From the NCBI GenBank assembly GCA_029561145.1, contig JAKQJM010000090.1:1-41258 (forward strand): 41,258 nucleotides of DNA. The letters are read 5' to 3'. The position numbers and the translations under genes were made by a program. Below are positions 6,921 to 41,258 of the stretch, piece by piece. Each line of letters begins with the position of its first letter. The first letter of the stretch is position 1. The notes beneath the pieces were generated by a model. That model was not told the origin of the DNA. It saw only the letters and a program-made list of their open reading frames with translations, and searched no databases. The DNA is from Pseudomonadota bacterium. Its GTDB lineage: Bacteria; Pseudomonadota; Gammaproteobacteria; Xanthomonadales; Rhodanobacteraceae.

Positions 6921-7074
6921 GGCGATTTCGGGTTTCGGGGAAACGGCGATTGTCCGTCAAAGCGGTTTCCGGCGCAGCCCCGCCGGCTGACCATTCCCGC
7001 TACCCGATCAAGCCCGCGGAGGGAAAAGCCCGTTAGACTTCGCGACTGGCGTGGGCGATCGGGGGTATCTGGCG

Positions 7075-8256
7075 ATGCGTTGCATTCTTGTCGGCTTGTT
7101 GTTGCTGGTCGTTTTCGAGCCTGCCGTGGCGGCCGTGAAACGTGTCGATCCGGCCTACCTTGCAAGCATCCGGGACGACAATCCGAATCCGCTGCCACGT
7201 GGGTTCGGCCCCGGTGAGCACCCTGTCGCGCCGCGGATTCCGGACCACGTGCTCGCACCACCGCCAGGCAGCGCACGTGCGCAGGCCGAGTACGAGGACA
7301 ATCAGGGATTGATGGTCCGCTGGGGCTCGTTCAATTCGCTGCTGACCGACATGACCGTCGCGATCACCACCGGCGACAGTTCCGCCCGGATGTACGTCGT
7401 GGTCACCGGAACCAGTCAGCAGAACAGCGCCGCAAGCACACTTGCCGGAGCTGGCGCCAACATGGATCGGGTAGGTTTCATCGTCCAGCCCTGCAGCAAT
7501 TCCAACCAGTGCAGCGTCTGGATGCGTGACTATGGTCCGCGCTTCATTGACGACAGTGGCCGCCTCGGCATCATCGATCACATCTACAACCGGCCGCAGC
7601 GGATCGTCGATGACGCCTATCCCGACGTTGCCTCCACAGTTCGCGGCGAGCCGAACTACGACATCCCGTTGACGCACGGTGGCGGCAATTTTCACTTGTT
7701 CCGGAATCGTGATGCGTTCATGACGAGGTTGATCGTCAACGAGAACCCTGGCGTGAGCGAACAGCAGATCCGCGACTACTACGCGTTGTACCAGGGTCTC
7801 GATGTGACCCTGACCGATCCGTTCCCGATCAGCTACGACTCGACCCAGCATATCGACATGTGGATGTTGCCGCTTGCCGACAACACGGTGTTGATCGGCG
7901 AATACGCAGCCGGGGAAGGTGGCGGCGTGCCCAAGACGGTGACCGATGCCACCGCATCGCTGATGCAGTCACGCGGATACACGGTCTATCGCACGCCAGG
8001 CTGGCGCGCAGGCGGTGCGCACTACACCTACACGAATGCTGTCCTGCTCAACGACCTTGCGCTGATCTGCCGTTTTGGCGGCAGCTATGCCGCGCAGGAC
8101 GCCCAGGCGCTGGCGACATTCCAGACCGCGCTGCCGGATCGCACCATAGTGCAGGTCGATTGCAGCGGCATCATTGGTTCGGCCGGCGCGATCCATTGCA
8201 TCGTCATGCATGTGCCCGACCTGCTTTTCCGCGATGAGTTTGAAGGCGTCGAGTGA
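7075..8256 (+). CDS. Exported agmatine/peptidylarginine deiminase-family enzyme
   Basis: This is a guanidine-modifying superfamily protein of the agmatine deiminase/Porphyromonas-type PAD group, 393 residues from ATG 7075. Catalytic landmarks are present: WMRDYGP with Asp152, a GGGNFH motif, QHIDMWM with His259 and Asp261, and GAIHCIVMHVP with the nucleophile Cys375. The ATG at 7075 opens a clear signal peptide (MRCILVGLLLLVVFEPAVAA), so the enzyme acts outside the cytoplasm. Cytosolic agmatine deiminases have no such peptide, which makes a peptidylarginine-type or other extracellular substrate plausible. A GTG at 7051 would add residues before the signal and is less likely. The last residues, DLLFRDEFEGVE, match the tail of two other exported proteins in this window. 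The actual substrate is not predictable. Confidence 0.88.
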   Translation: MRCILVGLLLLVVFEPAVAAVKRVDPAYLASIRDDNPNPLPRGFGPGEHPVAPRIPDHVLAPPPGSARAQAEYEDNQGLMVRWGSFNSLLTDMTVAITTGDSSARMYVVVTGTSQQNSAASTLAGAGANMDRVGFIVQPCSNSNQCSVWMRDYGPRFIDDSGRLGIIDHIYNRPQRIVDDAYPDVASTVRGEPNYDIPLTHGGGNFHLFRNRDAFMTRLIVNENPGVSEQQIRDYYALYQGLDVTLTDPFPISYDSTQHIDMWMLPLADNTVLIGEYAAGEGGGVPKTVTDATASLMQSRGYTVYRTPGWRAGGAHYTYTNAVLLNDLALICRFGGSYAAQDAQALATFQTALPDRTIVQVDCSGIIGSAGAIHCIVMHVPDLLFRDEFEGVE

Positions 8257-28225: not shown

Positions 28226-31200
28226 TCAGCGCGGATCGAACCCGCTGGAGAACAGGCGATCGGGCAGGGGCGGCCCGACGACGAACACGCCGGCTGCGAC
28301 CGGTCCGGCGTTGTAGGCGCTGTCGACTGCCTGCAGGCTCCACAGATACGGACCATCGGCGAGATTCTCCAGCGACCAGACGCCACGGCTGCTCAGGTTG
28401 CCGGGCTCGGGCGTGCGCCGTGCCGTCGTGAGCGGTACTCCATTGCGATACAGGCGCAGGTCGTAGGTCAGCGCATCGGGCGGCGTCAGGTCGTCGCTGG
28501 CTGGGCTCCACGCGAGCGCCACCGCGCCACCACCGATGACCGTGGAAGCGAGCGCGGTGGGCGCTGAAGGCGCCTGGTTCTGCGCAGGCGCGCTGTTCAC
28601 GTAGAGGTGCATCTGGGTTTCGATCAATCCATTGCCGCCTGGCACGAAGTACGCGCCGGCGATGAAATAATCGAGATCGCCGTCGCCATCGATATCGAGC
28701 CAGCTGAATGATCCACCGCTGAAACCCATCGCGCGCGGCGCCGGCAACTGGTTGCCCGAATCGACGAAGTTGCCGTCCACGTTGTCGTAGACCTTGGCGC
28801 GACCCTCGATCTGCGATCCCGAGTTGTAGGTGCCGGCGAGCAGGATGTCGATGTCGCCATCGGAATCGTAGTCGGCCCAGGTTGCAGCGGAAACATCGAA
28901 CCAGCCTTCGCACAGGGTGCACTCGATGACCTCGAACGGCACGAAGCTATCGTCGTCATTGCGATAGACGCGCAGGACCGTGTCGTAGGTGCCGTCAGTC
29001 TCCCTGACATTGCCGGCGACGAGGATGTCGAGGTCGCCGTCGTCGTCATAGTCACCCCACTGCGCTTCGCCGTGTTCGACGCTGAGTGAGCCGAGGATGT
29101 CCTGGCCGACGAAGGTGCCGTCGCCGTCGTTGCGGAATCGCCGGATATAGCCCTCGCCGGTCAGCGGGGCGAGATGGACGACGAGCAGGTCGAGATCCTG
29201 GTCGCCATCGAAGTCGGCCCACAGGGTCTGCGCATGATCGGATTGACCGAGCCCGGCGTTGACTTCGGTGAAGTTCCAGTCGCCGTTGCCATTGGCGCCG
29301 TCGTTGCGCATCAGTGCGGTGTGCGAAGTGAAGGTTTCCTCGTCCCAGATCGAAGGCAGCAACAGGTCGAGATCGCCATCGTTGTCGTAGTCGGCCCACG
29401 AGATCGAATGCAGGTCGAAGTCGGCCTGGTCGTTGTCTTCCCAATAGCCGGGCAACGTCGTGCTGGTGGGTACGAGCGTGCCGGCGTCATTGCGATACAG
29501 CACGGTCTGGCCGTCGCTGCCGATGACCAGGTCCTGGTCGCCATCGCCATCCGCATCGCCCCATGCCATGTCCGATGCACCTGCGGTCAGCGTTCCGTGT
29601 GGCACGTCGATGTAGGAAAAATTCCAGTGCGTTGCATCGAGCGGCCCGTTGTTGCGCATCAGCACGAGCTTGTCGACCACGCTCTCGTTGTAGACCACGT
29701 AGTAGCCGAGCACGACGATGTCGAGGTCGCCATCGCCGTCGTAATCGGCGGGAGCCGCCGCGGTGACCCAGAAGTCCTCATCCTGTGGCGTCACGAACAG
29801 CGGATCGAGCGGCGTCACTTCGGTGAACTCGCCAAACGTGCCGCCGGGGCCGGCTTGCACGACAACGAAACGCAATGCCGAATCGATGCCGCCGTCGTCA
29901 TCGGTGACGCGCAGCGTCACGTGATACGTGCCGGGCGCCGTGAACAGATGGGTGGGGTTGCGCTCGGTCGAACCGGATTCATCGCCGAAATCCCATTGCC
30001 AGGCCGTGATCGTGCCGTCGTTGTCGATGCTGGTATCGGTCAGGCTGACGGAAAAGCCGGTCGTGACAAAATCGAACGATGCCCGCGGTGGCTGATTGAC
30101 CGGCGCGCCGGGTGGCCCCGCGAAATGGCGAATCCTGCCCTGCCATCCGCCGATCCAGGCATCGCCCTGCGGACTCGCGACAAGACTTGAATATGTACCG
30201 AATCCGGCACTGCCCGCGTCCATGACAGCCCAGTTTTGGCCGCCGGTGGACGAATACATGACCTTGCCTCCGGTGGTCGAGACCCAGATTTCATTGGGCC
30301 CGAACAGGACGATGTCGCTGATCGTGTCCGTCGTGTCGGGTGTCGGCAGAATTTGCCAGGTCTGGCCGCCATCGACGCTGCGCGCGGCATAACCCGACCC
30401 GCCGACCACGTAGCCGGTGCTGGCATCCCAGAAGTCGACGTCGCGGATCGAATGCTGTTGCGAATCCGGAAGCGCAATCTCCGACCAGGATGCGCCGCCG
30501 TCGAGCGTGCGTTGCAGCACGCCGTAGATCGCCGCCGCCCAGCCGTGCGCGCCGACGAAATCGACCGCAGCGTAGGTCCCCTCGAAATCGCCGACCGGTG
30601 CCCAATGGTCACCGCCATCAATCGTGTGGAACAGTGCCGCGCCACTGAATCCCTGACCCACGACCCAACCGCTGGTCGGGCTGTCGAAATGAAGGTCGGC
30701 AGCAGTGAGGCCGGGTGGGGCCGACGTTCCTGCCGTCCACGATGCTCCCGCGTCGGTGCTGCGGTAGACGATGCCGGTCTGGCCAACCGCGACGACAGAC
30801 TGTGGTCCGATCACTTGCACCGCTTCGAGATCGGCTTCGCCGAGCGCGCTGCGGATGACCCAGCGCGTGGAACCCGAGGTGCGCGTGAGCACCTGACCCG
30901 ATGCACCGACCGCGATCAGGTCGCCGTTCGCGAATCGGTCCAGCGCGAATATCTCGTTGCCGGTTCCGCTCGACAACTGCGTCCAGCTTGCGCCCGCATC
31001 GGTCGTGCGAATCAGGAAGCCCGCACCGAAGCCGAAGTAACCCGTCGTCGCATCGACGAAGTCAGGCACGCCGCTGCCAAGGAAACCCGGTGCCGGTCCC
31101 GGTGTCGCGAACGCCTGCGTCCAGTTCTGTCCGGCGTCGGTTGATCGATACAGATTGCCGGCGCCGTCGGACGCGATGACGATCGAGGCAGCCGGCATGC

Positions 31201-32122
31201 TGAACACCACGGAGGATGCATTCGCGCCGGGCGGAATCGCCACGCCGAGGTCGGTCCAGCTTTGTCCGGCATCGGTCGATCGGAACAGTCGATCGTCGTA
31301 GTCCGGAAAGGTACCGCTGCGACCCGAAGCCAGCACGACGTTGTTGGAAACGACGAACAGGCTGTCGCGACCTTGCGCGCTGCCGCCGATGCTCCAGCTC
31401 ACTCCACCATTGACCGAGCGTGCGAAATTGCCGTCGACGATCGCCACGGCGACCGATGGCGAGAGAAATTCGACAGCCGTCGCATTGCCGGACAGGACCG
31501 AAGCGAAAGTCGCGCCGCCGTCTGTGGTCAGGAAAACCCCGCTCGCGCCAGCGCCGAGTCCGTTTTGCGTTCCGGCGAAAGCGAAATCGGTCATTCCGTC
31601 CGGCGACTCCTGCCAGGTCGTTCCGCCATCGCGGCTGATCTGGGCGCCGAAATTGCCGGTCGTGATGCCGAATTCCGGCGTCTGGAACTCCATGGAATAG
31701 GCCGAGCCCAGGAAGGGCAGCTGCGTCCAGGTGTCGCCGCCGTCCGTGGTCCGGTAATTGACATTGCCCCACACCCAGCCGTGTTGGCTGTCGAGGAAGA
31801 AAATCCCGTTGAGCCCATTGCTCTGATCGGCGGGTACGTCACGCTGGGTCCAGGTCGCGCCATTGTCGCGCGACTCGAACAGCGCGCCGCCATCGTCGAA
31901 GGAGTCGTCATCGGTAGCGAGGAAGACCCGGCCCGCGGAAGGTGATGCAACGCCGTGCACCTGCAGATGGGTAGGCAATGGGCTCTCGCTGCTCCACTGC
32001 GCCAATGCCGAGCCCGTCGGCATGGCCAGCAACACGCCTGCCATGACCAGTGATTTCCACCGCCGATGCGCAACTGCGCGCGCTCGGATGGCTTCGGGAA
32101 AATCTTGAGTTGCATTGAACAT
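28226..32122 (-). CDS. Giant exported protein with Asp-box, PKD, VCBS/FG-GAP and Fn3-like repeats
   Basis: 1298 residues from ATG 32122, which has AGAGG 5 bases upstream; the frame is open 8 codons further. A signal peptide with a long n-region ends at about residue 41 (LAMPTGSALA). Residues 42-670 hold about 13 Asp-box/BNR-like repeats of the S/T-x-D-x-G-x-x-W type (for example TTDGGDTWTQ, STDAGQSWTD). Such repeats form beta-propellers as in YCF48 and photosynthesis-assembly-like proteins. A PKD domain follows at about 675-757 (WQWDFGDESGS). Seven calcium-binding FG-GAP/VCBS motifs (DYDGDGDLDIVV and variants) occupy about 780-1160. Then comes an Fn3-like domain (about 1180-1275). The extreme C-terminus DRLFSSGFDPR matches two other exported proteins here. 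It is probably surface-located or released; ligand unknown. Confidence 0.9.
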   Translation of the reverse strand: MFNATQDFPEAIRARAVAHRRWKSLVMAGVLLAMPTGSALAQWSSESPLPTHLQVHGVASPSAGRVFLATDDDSFDDGGALFESRDNGATWTQRDVPADQSNGLNGIFFLDSQHGWVWGNVNYRTTDGGDTWTQLPFLGSAYSMEFQTPEFGITTGNFGAQISRDGGTTWQESPDGMTDFAFAGTQNGLGAGASGVFLTTDGGATFASVLSGNATAVEFLSPSVAVAIVDGNFARSVNGGVSWSIGGSAQGRDSLFVVSNNVVLASGRSGTFPDYDDRLFRSTDAGQSWTDLGVAIPPGANASSVVFSMPAASIVIASDGAGNLYRSTDAGQNWTQAFATPGPAPGFLGSGVPDFVDATTGYFGFGAGFLIRTTDAGASWTQLSSGTGNEIFALDRFANGDLIAVGASGQVLTRTSGSTRWVIRSALGEADLEAVQVIGPQSVVAVGQTGIVYRSTDAGASWTAGTSAPPGLTAADLHFDSPTSGWVVGQGFSGAALFHTIDGGDHWAPVGDFEGTYAAVDFVGAHGWAAAIYGVLQRTLDGGASWSEIALPDSQQHSIRDVDFWDASTGYVVGGSGYAARSVDGGQTWQILPTPDTTDTISDIVLFGPNEIWVSTTGGKVMYSSTGGQNWAVMDAGSAGFGTYSSLVASPQGDAWIGGWQGRIRHFAGPPGAPVNQPPRASFDFVTTGFSVSLTDTSIDNDGTITAWQWDFGDESGSTERNPTHLFTAPGTYHVTLRVTDDDGGIDSALRFVVVQAGPGGTFGEFTEVTPLDPLFVTPQDEDFWVTAAAPADYDGDGDLDIVVLGYYVVYNESVVDKLVLMRNNGPLDATHWNFSYIDVPHGTLTAGASDMAWGDADGDGDQDLVIGSDGQTVLYRNDAGTLVPTSTTLPGYWEDNDQADFDLHSISWADYDNDGDLDLLLPSIWDEETFTSHTALMRNDGANGNGDWNFTEVNAGLGQSDHAQTLWADFDGDQDLDLLVVHLAPLTGEGYIRRFRNDGDGTFVGQDILGSLSVEHGEAQWGDYDDDGDLDILVAGNVRETDGTYDTVLRVYRNDDDSFVPFEVIECTLCEGWFDVSAATWADYDSDGDIDILLAGTYNSGSQIEGRAKVYDNVDGNFVDSGNQLPAPRAMGFSGGSFSWLDIDGDGDLDYFIAGAYFVPGGNGLIETQMHLYVNSAPAQNQAPSAPTALASTVIGGGAVALAWSPASDDLTPPDALTYDLRLYRNGVPLTTARRTPEPGNLSSRGVWSLENLADGPYLWSLQAVDSAYNAGPVAAGVFVVGPPLPDRLFSSGFDPR

Positions 32123-32633
32123 GTTCGCCTCTTCGCCCCACGCCAAAATTACCGCCGAGGTGGAAGATGCCGTTGCTGCAGACTTCCGCCACCCGATCCA
32201 CTACCTGTTTCGTGGGCGGATTGTCCGACAGCGAAACGCCGTGAAACCGTCGCTGGGTGATTTCCCCCCCCCAACCATTGTTCAGGTCGCGTCGATGAAC
32301 GATGCGGAAATTCCTGCCCTGGCCATTCGCCAAGGCATGCGCTTCGTCGGTTGTTTTCATCAGGAATGCCGCGTCGATGCGTCGGGATTCGCCACTTCAG
32401 CCGGCGCAAGCAGGACTTGGGTCGATTCATGACACGTCAGGCCTATTGCAATCCTGGCTGCCGGGCGGGCTTCATCGACCCAGCATCTCTGACTTCGTCA
32501 CGCTGCAATGGCGCTCGACGGGCGGAGTCAACCCGACCGGCGCGTCTTCGTTCCGCACGGTGCGGGAAATCCGCTTCGTCTTTTGCGCAGGCGATATACA
32601 CTTCGGGCTCATACCGAGCTTGGGGAAGATCGC
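32123..32633. other. Divergent intergenic region, no supported gene
   Basis: About 510 bases between the giant repeat protein and the amidohydrolase. Frames on both strands are open for up to about 110 codons, but they lack motifs, signal peptides and ribosome binding sites. It includes a run of nine C at 32264-32272, about 140 bases upstream of the repeat protein start. Promoters for both genes are expected here; I could not place them. Confidence 0.5.
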
Positions 32634-39228: not shown

Positions 39229-39762
39229 ACCAGCGTCTCCTCAAGTCGTCGCAGGCAAGGGTGCTGGGTTGCGAGAGAGTGATCCAGTGAATTATCCGGG
39301 ATGCCGATGATTTCGGCGAGCTTGTTGGATCCGATGTGTGCGTCCTGGTTGTTCCGATCGCCTGCAAGGCCTATCCGTGAAGCGTCTCGCCGCGCGCGGA
39401 GCGAAACCCGGGTCCGAAACCCGGGACAGGCTAAAAATTTCCGGGACCAAACCCTGAGGGACTTTCAGAGAAGCGCACTCTGACCCCACTTTTGCTGCAT
39501 GTGCTGCGCCTGAAGGGTGACACGCTGTTTGAAGACGGATTCGAAGAGCTGCACTGACAGGATCGATGCAAAGTGAATGGAGGCGCCTGTGTTGGCGCGG
39601 CCGGCGCCCCGCTTCACGCGTTCTGCAACAAGAACACGGTGCGTTCGTGAGGCGTCGGTGGATGTCCCGGTCCGGTTCGGTTGCCCATGATTCGTCTCCC
39701 TGTCGTGGCCAACGCCGATGATGCGGCGAACGGCCGTGCGGCGGGAGAGGGATAGGCGTGTT
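39229..39762. other. Intergenic region with a gene remnant and repeat-like DNA
   Basis: About 530 bases with no intact gene. It holds an imperfect repeat of GAAACCCGGG (near 39404 and 39417), the apparent 3' remnant of an exported-protein gene (39435-39557), and a short - strand frame (39614-39688) with a good GGGAG motif but no recognisable product. The phrase CTGACCCCACTTTT at 39480-39493 resembles, from memory, the ends of small transposon-derived elements in related genomes. Confidence 0.45.
39435..39557 (+). pseudogene. 3' remnant of a gene ending in the D-x-L-F-x-x-G-F-E tail
   Basis: A + strand frame of about 40 codons with no start is open from a stop at 39432 to TGA 39555. Its last residues are KGDTLFEDGFEELH, which fit the tail of the exported proteins ending at 39763 (DTLFANGFES) and 28226 (DRLFSSGFDPR), and the DNA around GACACGCTGTT is nearly identical to the former. 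The upstream residues match nothing I recognise. I read this as the 3' end of a lost gene, possibly cut by an insertion near 39480. Chance is unlikely but not excluded. Confidence 0.4.
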
Positions 39763-41258
39763 TCAAGACTCGAACCCGTTGGCGAACAGCGTGTCGTCGG
39801 CATCGGCCTCCACCGCACCGACGTCGCAGCGCACACCGCCAGGGCGGGCGTAGCGGCGTTGGTCGGTGGGGAGGCATTGCGGTGTGCTGGCGCGGTCGAT
39901 GGCGAAGCTGCCGATGCCGGGCAGGCGCGTCGGTGTCGGGCCGCCATTGTTCGCGAGCGGGCCGAGCGCGAGGCTGGCGTTGCTGATGTTGATGCGGTTC
40001 TGTTCGGGATCCAGCCCGCAGGTGTCGCCGGTGCTCTCGATGTTGCCGGCGTTGTTCTGAAGCACGCCGTTGTTCATTCCGCAGCTGCCCTGCACGATCG
40101 AGTTCGAAAGGGTCAGAGCGACGCCGTTGCCGAGACCGCCAATGGCGGTGCCGACGACGCCGGCGGGCATCGTGTTGGGTCGCACCAGGGTGACGTGCGT
40201 GAGGATCAGTTGCGCACCAGCGCCGTTGCGGAAGCCGATGGCCGCACCGCGTGCGCCATCGGCGGCGGCCGCGACCGTGAAGCTGTTGCCGGAGAACGTG
40301 CTGTTGCGGATGCGCAGCGTCGTGTCATCTTCGAGCACGACGGCGCCGCCCGCGTTGCCGTCCACGCGATTGTTGACGAAGCTCGATCCGCTGACGGTCC
40401 AATCCCCGCCTCCTGCGGCATAGAGCGCGCGCACCGTGTTGTCCTCGAACAGGCTGTCCTCGATGGTCACGAGCACATCGGTTTCGGTGCGGATCGGTCC
40501 GACATTGTCGATGTAGTGAACGCGACGCAGCGTCAGCGTACTGGGGCCGATGCCTTGCATGGGAATTTCGCTGTTCGTGATAGTCGAGTCCTCGATAACC
40601 AACTGGCCGCGAATCAGACCCACCTGAGCAAGGTTCGTATTGGCCGGGTCAAGCTCGCCATCGATGAGGACCCGCCGCAAGGTCAGCGTGGTCTCGCCGC
40701 TGCCTTGGACGGTGAGGTCGCGTATCGCGCTGTCTTCGACCACGGTCTGGCCGTAGTTGCAGTACAGCGACGTTCGAATCTCGCTGCGGCGGACCTGGGT
40801 GGTGCCGCAGACCTGGAGATTGCCGCCTTCGAAGATGATGTCGTCGACCAGCACCGGCACGCCCTGGAAGCCGGCATAGCAGCCGTCGACGGGGCCCTTG
40901 AAGGAATCGAGGCGCATCCCGACCACCGCAAGATCGCCCCCGGCGGCGGTGAAAAACATATTGGTGAATTCCTCCGTTTGCACGACGCGGGTCAAGTTGG
41001 AACCGGCCCCCTGCACGCGCAGTCGCTGCGCGACGACGGTCAGTTCGCCGCGCGTCAGCAAGATCGTGCCCGCCGGCACGACGACCACGTCGGTGGGACC
41101 GAGTGGATCGTTCGCCCCGGCCGCCGCCATGGCTTCGCGCAGCGAGCAATCCCCGGCCAGGCAGCCATTGGGCGAGGGATCATCCAGGCGCGTGACCTGA
41201 AAAGTGGCGGCGTGGACGTTCGCGGAGATCAGCGCGAACAGCAGGGCAGCGACGAGAG
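39763..41258 (-). CDS. Exported choice-of-anchor-Q-type beta-helix protein, 5' end outside window
   Basis: At least 497 residues; the frame stays open to the window edge, so the true start is beyond 41258. Near the edge the reading LVAALLFALISANVHA is the end of a signal peptide, followed by CLAGDCSLREAMAAA, a segment typical of proteins with right-handed parallel beta-helix repeats. An ATG at 41130 is internal and not the start. The body has many short repeats (VVEDSAIRDL, LTLRRVLIDG, VTIEDSLFEDN) consistent with a beta-helix. The end carries NNGGPTPTRLPGIGSFAID, CLPTDQR and GGVRCDVGAVE, as in choice-of-anchor Q proteins. The C-terminus is DADDTLFANGFES, the tail shared with two other exported proteins here. 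Probably surface-located; function unknown. Confidence 0.88.
   Translation of the reverse strand, partial: LVAALLFALISANVHAATFQVTRLDDPSPNGCLAGDCSLREAMAAAGANDPLGPTDVVVVPAGTILLTRGELTVVAQRLRVQGAGSNLTRVVQTEEFTNMFFTAAGGDLAVVGMRLDSFKGPVDGCYAGFQGVPVLVDDIIFEGGNLQVCGTTQVRRSEIRTSLYCNYGQTVVEDSAIRDLTVQGSGETTLTLRRVLIDGELDPANTNLAQVGLIRGQLVIEDSTITNSEIPMQGIGPSTLTLRRVHYIDNVGPIRTETDVLVTIEDSLFEDNTVRALYAAGGGDWTVSGSSFVNNRVDGNAGGAVVLEDDTTLRIRNSTFSGNSFTVAAAADGARGAAIGFRNGAGAQLILTHVTLVRPNTMPAGVVGTAIGGLGNGVALTLSNSIVQGSCGMNNGVLQNNAGNIESTGDTCGLDPEQNRINISNASLALGPLANNGGPTPTRLPGIGSFAIDRASTPQCLPTDQRRYARPGGVRCDVGAVEADADDTLFANGFES

Follow-up and report, generated by a model that had tools for sequence, protein, structure and literature searches.

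A short C-terminal tail on unrelated exported proteins of Lysobacterales is found mostly in genomes with a second type II secretion system

Why do exported proteins with different folds end in almost the same few residues, and what might read that ending? The question is raised by the window analysed here, a 41 kb stretch of DNA (41,258 nt) that is contig C144 of a Dokdonella-like genome of the order Lysobacterales (3.6 Mb in 149 contigs). The first-pass annotation had reported three such tails and proposed a possible new sorting signal. All three are present, with stops at 39763 (minus strand), 28226 (minus strand) and 8256 (plus strand), and the Pfam domains of the three proteins differ. The count of three was too low, because a fourth copy with its stop at 39557 (plus strand) had been overlooked. 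Scanning all six frames of the 41 kb window with the pattern [LIVMF]F..[GED]F[DE] gives these four matches, each 1-3 codons before a stop, and no others. The features are:

7051..8256, plus strand: peptidyl-arginine deiminase family protein (PF04371) with a signal-peptide-like start and a variant tail
8218..8253, plus strand: variant tail DLLFRDEFEGVE, E replacing G (six-frame motif scan)
28226..32146, minus strand: large exported repeat protein (BNR/Sortilin-like, PKD, FG-GAP) with the tail DRLFSSGFDPR
28229..28261, minus strand: tail DRLFSSGFDPR (six-frame motif scan)
39519..39554, plus strand, stop 39557: fourth tail, DTLFEDGFEELH, in an open frame of 40 codons where no gene body could be seen
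39763..41256, minus strand: exported beta-helix protein (signal-peptide-like start; Beta_helix), open at the window edge
39766..39795, minus strand: tail DTLFANGFES of the beta-helix protein (six-frame motif scan)
39805..39969, minus strand: choice-of-anchor Q domain (NF041518), ending just upstream of the DTLFANGFES tail

The beta-helix protein also has a weak CSLREA match, below the cut-off of that model. The deiminase tail had been listed as a further copy of the motif but departs from it, with E where G is expected; it is the sole case among 89 tails collected by searches that targeted G. The orphan tail may be what is left of a gene for an exported protein that has been lost.

The tail is not confined to the window. 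A genome-wide search with the degenerate DNA pattern TTYNNNNNNGGNTTYGAN, which stands for F-x-x-G-F-D/E, gives 121 matches, compared with 21 when the pattern is reversed; a sharper pattern, with I/L/F/M/V before the F and D/N/H before the G, gives 56 compared with 1. The C-terminal position that had been claimed holds in an unselected sample: 15 of the first 30 of the 121 matches lie within 5 residues of a stop and three more at 11-16 residues (L005 at 14; L030 at 11 and L027 at 16, the latter two on short frames), and one further tail-like sequence (L001) is in a frame that runs off the contig end. Of 70 open frames, 45 have the motif within 5 residues of the stop and 54 within 16, a biased count since some stretches were chosen by eye. 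By-eye tallies of the 15 unselected C-terminal cases give D three residues before the first F in 13, I or L directly before that F in all 15, and D, N or H before the G in 13. The corresponding numbers for 50 tails of this genome, partly chosen by eye, are 44, 48 and 43. The consensus is D-x-[I/L]-F-x-[D/N/H]-G-F-[D/E], usually no more than 5 residues from the stop. In 36 of 89 tails from eight genomes the protein ends with the motif itself, and in the other 53 a further 1-14 residues come after it. The tail is thus real and sorting-signal-like at genome scale.

It had also been suggested that the tail has neither a membrane helix nor a basic cluster and belongs to no named family, and the wider sample agrees on both points. 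A hydrophobic 19-mer (mean hydropathy at least 1.6) is found in the last 60 residues of 1/89 tail proteins, where it is borderline, and there is no K or R after the motif in 86/89. No curated NCBIfam or Pfam model covers the tail group when 60 of the 89 tails are scanned as C-terminal 30-mers up to E = 10: four NCBIfam families are matched, the commonest (choice_anch_Q) by two tails, and two Pfam families by one tail each. A literature search, with preprints and most subscription journals outside its coverage, found nothing on the tail among the papers listed, and the tail strings gave no match as whole words.

Some copies have unusual forms. Tandem tails, 33-39 bases apart, are present at one C-terminus in L098 (G400), in L109 (G462) and at G377:C70:17874 and 17913. 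Two other loci of G377 (L093, L094) have an extended form, IFADGFETGDTSAW or IFADGFESGDTSSW, which may be a longer relative of the tail. In L069 (G000) an internal sequence at about protein position 1000, FEQGFEAWTHSG, resembles the tail and may start a MAM-like domain. The start of such a domain is a possible evolutionary source of the tail; this is the one convincing internal match behind the likeness to the first strand of MAM-like jelly rolls.

The proteins that carry the tail have diverse bodies and tend to begin like exported proteins, which is the pattern expected of a sorting signal. Of 71 tail frames whose 5' end is complete (a set that includes L035, later removed as not a tail), 57 have a signal-peptide-like start; the rule used is crude, considers all possible start codons and has a high background. 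Within the stretches of our own genome, 21/24 carriers have such a start by a loose cut compared with 40/81 other predicted genes, and by a stricter cut 20/24 compared with 32/81 (p = 1.6e-4). The tail is not part of a single homologous domain: 50 own-genome carriers match 42 Pfam families (E <= 0.001), and no family occurs in more than 5 of them. These families include subtilases, M28, M14 and M12B peptidases, beta-helices, endonuclease I, BNR, PKD and FG-GAP repeats and sugar dehydrogenases. Among the NCBIfam matches of the carriers (E <= 0.01, not all above cut-off) are choice-of-anchor Q and J and families described as rhombosortase-dependent, myxosortase-dependent, MYXO-CTERM-anchored or LPXTG-anchored. 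Carriers therefore match families with known sorting signals, and this suggests that the tail occupies the place that such signals have in other bacteria.

The distribution of the tail is sporadic within one order. In a survey of 369 genomes, the sharper pattern has at most 8 matches per genome outside the order, and of 18 loci read from four genomes outside it (G233, G239, G231 and G163), one, L226, carries the motif no more than 5 residues from the stop of a frame longer than 100 codons. Across 398 genomes of the order, most have either 0-4 matches or tens of matches, up to 176, and there are some intermediate counts in families f187, f188 and f190. The four loci read in a tail-poor genome of the order, G736, contain no tail of that kind.

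A tag of this sort could have a partner gene with the same distribution, and three candidates were compared: rhombosortase, exosortase and type II secretion (T2SS). Rhombosortase was rejected on its distribution, being above cut-off in 2/39 genomes, both of them tail-less; the tail-rich G514 has a match just under the cut-off. Exosortase is present in 16/26 tail-bearing and 3/13 tail-less genomes and is absent from three genomes of g282. Although it is commoner where there are tails, it was rejected as a general partner because it is missing from 10/26 tail-bearing genomes.

For type II secretion, the loci that were read show two arrangements of gsp genes: a standard full cluster (B) and a shorter gspC-gspD-gspE block (A). 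The standard cluster is seen in both tail-rich and tail-less genomes, and was rejected as the partner because most of the tail-less relatives compared carry a secretin above cut-off (G384, G012 and G506 do not); wherever their loci were read, these secretins sit in the standard cluster. In 19 loci with the A block, gspF is called in 10, an rhlB-like family in 14 and an ftsE- or ftsX-like family in 8, the family names being taken from one scanned locus (L120). The GspC of this block, GspC-A, combines a T2SSC region with a PDZ domain, and its homology to OutC, PulC and EpsC extends to the PDZ domain. We refer to the system of the A block as T2SS-A.

A T2SS secretin model was run over 72 chosen genomes. 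In the tail-rich genomes of family f1, 11/11 have a secretin at E 1.2e-163 or better together with a second full one (1.6e-149 to 6.4e-138); of the tail-less genomes of the same family, 12/13 have no secretin better than 4.5e-145. Further full-length secretins, of the weaker class, are present in the tail-less G438 and G459. By identity to the GspD of our own T2SS-A, genomes with a close secretin (67-91%) have 30-176 tail matches in 13/13 cases, and genomes with a GspD that is 27-47% identical have 0-3 in 12/12; the latter twelve count against the proposed link. Among the closest named relatives by this secretin is Dokdonella immobilis (91% identical). The named genomes reached via the T2SS-A secretin have 68 (D. 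immobilis), 102 and 133 (D. fugitiva) and 53 (a Rudaea MAG) matches to a combined pattern that allows G, R or S. One sequence in the comparison, L288 (CAMCBU010000022.1), is titled as a Klebsiella pneumoniae MAG; its GspD is 46% identical to our own, like those of the uncultured Gammaproteobacteria beside it, and the Klebsiella label may be wrong.

A profile of GspC-A was then used over the 398 genomes; each genome listed had five candidates scored. By the G form only, 98 genomes have at least 10 matches, 90 of them with GspC-A (A-plus) and 8 with the tail only, and 38 A-plus genomes are without the tail. In this first survey genus g302 looked A-plus yet tail-less, a large exception. Its choice-of-anchor Q proteins, however, end in ...IFSDRFEQP and similar sequences, with R in place of G. 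A [D/N][R/S]F[D/E] pattern has at least 10 matches, and up to 80, in 23/30 g302 genomes, compared with 0-2 for the reversed pattern, and 1-9 in each of the remaining seven, all of these totals being pattern counts. Thirty loci checked for the R/S pattern, all from families other than that of g302, show S-form C-termini together with many chance matches. The S form is found at the stop in G-type genomes (LFKNSFE, IFRDSFE; L182, L183, L188, L195, L199 and others).

When G and R/S forms are counted together, with cut-offs of E <= 1e-29 for GspC-A and at least 10 pattern matches for the tail, 112 genomes have both, 16 have GspC-A only, 13 have the tail only and 257 have neither (odds ratio 138, Fisher p 3e-65, kinship ignored); both the cut at 10 matches and the R/S pattern were chosen after the data had been looked at. 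Since genomes share ancestry, the independent events are far fewer than 398, and a hand tally of 98 genera gives about 35 with both, 6 with A only and 1 with the tail only. The second T2SS is thus a transport apparatus that co-occurs with the tail, such as a sorting signal would be expected to have, and because the tag is found mostly in genomes with this system it probably marks T2SS-A cargo. The distribution would be explained equally well by a different gene that was lost on these branches.

The exceptions fall on both sides. None of the 13 tail-only genomes yielded a full GspC in a search aimed at this protein. Ten of these are 60-94% complete and one (G748) is 99% complete in 680 contigs; the other two, G427 and G461, reach 97-98% completeness and argue most strongly against the link with T2SS-A. 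In the four loci read from each there are three clear tails in G427, where the fourth match is on a five-codon frame, and two in G461. The 16 tail-poor A-plus genomes include G594 and G732 (genus g286, family f1). Both have a divergent PDZ GspC and no tails, and G594 has the stronger secretin class only.

We then looked at the ends of 40 choice-of-anchor Q proteins, hand-picked by domain match with their ends unseen. In G-type A-plus genomes 15/16 readable proteins end in F..GF[D/E] (four more have no stop in the stretch), and in the R-type genus g302 12/14 end in F.DRF[E/D/Q] (one without a stop). In genomes without T2SS-A neither form is present in the two that are readable (three without a stop). 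The variable residue is therefore R in 12/12 tails of the R type and G in 15/15 of the G type. That one genus should read R throughout its anchor Q carriers is expected if the carriers share one reader. This sample represents one shared domain, and the evidence for the G-to-R change across unrelated folds is the genome-wide counts.

Three anchor Q frames, L162 (G000:C75), L166 (G468) and L176 (G436), have no tail and end in a hydrophobic stretch with basic residues, so two sorting routes may coexist. Our own genome encodes a short exosortase-like protein (PF09721) at G000:C114:1039-1479, which is a possible partner of these hydrophobic-basic anchors.

Taken together, the data lead us to favour, with some confidence, a reading in which the tail is a short linear C-terminal sorting signal that would recruit its carriers to T2SS-A. 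What has been observed is the tail and its C-terminal place, the many folds that bear it, the enrichment in signal peptides, the shared distribution with T2SS-A and, in one genus, the change from G to R. According to this model, an N-terminal signal peptide would take carriers out of the cytoplasm, they would fold once in the periplasm, and the exposed tail, D-x-[I/L]-F-x-[D/N/H]-[G/R]-F-[D/E], would be bound by a component of T2SS-A, the likeliest readers being GspC with its PDZ domain and GspD. T2SS-A would then take the folded carrier through the outer membrane. A more specific form of the proposal, in which a portable recruitment signal of about nine residues is read at the PDZ/secretin entrance by a code able to switch from G to R throughout the cargo of one genus, is put forward more tentatively, at a little short of even confidence. 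The 1-14 residues that follow the tail in 53/89 proteins are unlike a classical PDZ ligand and count against reading by the PDZ domain. Additionally, no column of the GspC PDZ domain was found to separate R-tail from G-tail genomes in an alignment that left out G503, and so the PDZ domain is a putative reader only. Three GspC columns outside the PDZ domain do separate the two groups, a result confounded by kinship, and G527, which has mainly the G form, falls among the R-tail sequences in this comparison.

The tail could instead be a signal for surface retention or processing that acts after export or alongside it: a putative surface receptor or protease would bind or cleave the secreted proteins, its gene being kept or lost together with T2SS-A. 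This would suit the match of some carriers to families that elsewhere bear anchoring signals, and also the hydrophobic-basic end that replaces the tail on some anchor Q proteins (L162, L166 and L176). However, rhombosortase does not track the tail and exosortase does so only loosely, and the tandem tails (L098, L109) and the 0-14 trailing residues suit binding better than a single cut. We know of no receptor for the tail as a retention signal, and regard this explanation as rather unlikely.

A tag for periplasmic quality control, a chaperone or degradation would draw on the fact that PDZ proteases of the DegP/DegQ kind bind C-termini. Such proteases are general, whereas the tail is confined to part of one order, and it is difficult to see why dozens of enzymes and repeat proteins would bear a destructive tag. 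A structure model of the window beta-helix protein (mean pLDDT 61.6) gives the tail a pLDDT below 50, as a flexible end might have, but confidence is low over much of the last third as well and the model says little; we think such a role quite improbable. Least credible to us, to the point of being nearly negligible, is that the tail is mobile or DNA-level sequence (a repeat or an insertion end) without protein function. Its high copy number and the orphan copy in the window would be consistent with this, but the four glycine codons of the tail are used evenly (GGC 13, GGA 13, GGT 12, GGG 11) although the residue itself is conserved, a sign that selection acts at the protein rather than the DNA level. 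The enrichment of carriers in signal-peptide-like starts by the stricter cut and the span of the G-to-R change over the carriers read in g302 also argue against it.

If the tail does recruit carriers to T2SS-A, the consequences would go beyond this locus. The choice of cargo by type II secretion is an open question, and according to two recent papers no common linear signal is known (PMC7949064; PMC12369372); a linear recruitment signal would contradict that view. A short tag tied to one of two T2SSs per cell makes cargo selection directly testable, and, with 10 to 176 pattern matches in each tail-bearing genome, the tail would allow exported proteins to be predicted from sequence in a part of the Lysobacterales that has been little studied.

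Among the known systems closest to the tail are PEP-CTERM/exosortase, GlyGly-CTERM/rhombosortase and MYXO-CTERM/myxosortase. Known C-terminal sorting tags are tripartite, with a motif, a hydrophobic helix and a basic end (PMC11980579). The tail is like them in being a C-terminal tag on dozens of unrelated signal-peptide proteins, sporadic between genomes, and some carriers match the same families as their proteins do. In contrast with their helix and basic end, it has a borderline hydrophobic stretch in 1/89 cases and no K or R after the motif in 86/89, and rhombosortase does not follow its distribution while exosortase does so only loosely. The C-terminal domain of type IX secretion is likewise a C-terminal signal without a membrane helix for a dedicated outer-membrane system, but in Bacteroidota it takes the form of a folded domain some 80 residues long, whereas the tail has about nine residues and is found in Gammaproteobacteria. 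The closest comparison for the putative partner is type II secretion with OutC and EpsC: T2SS-A likewise has a PDZ-bearing GspC, GspD and, in the locus scanned, GspF. In Vibrio cholerae, VesB depends entirely on the PDZ domain of EpsC and is the only substrate known to do so (PMC12369372). Known T2SS cargo is held to share no linear signal (PMC7949064; PMC12369372), whereas the cargo of T2SS-A would share one.
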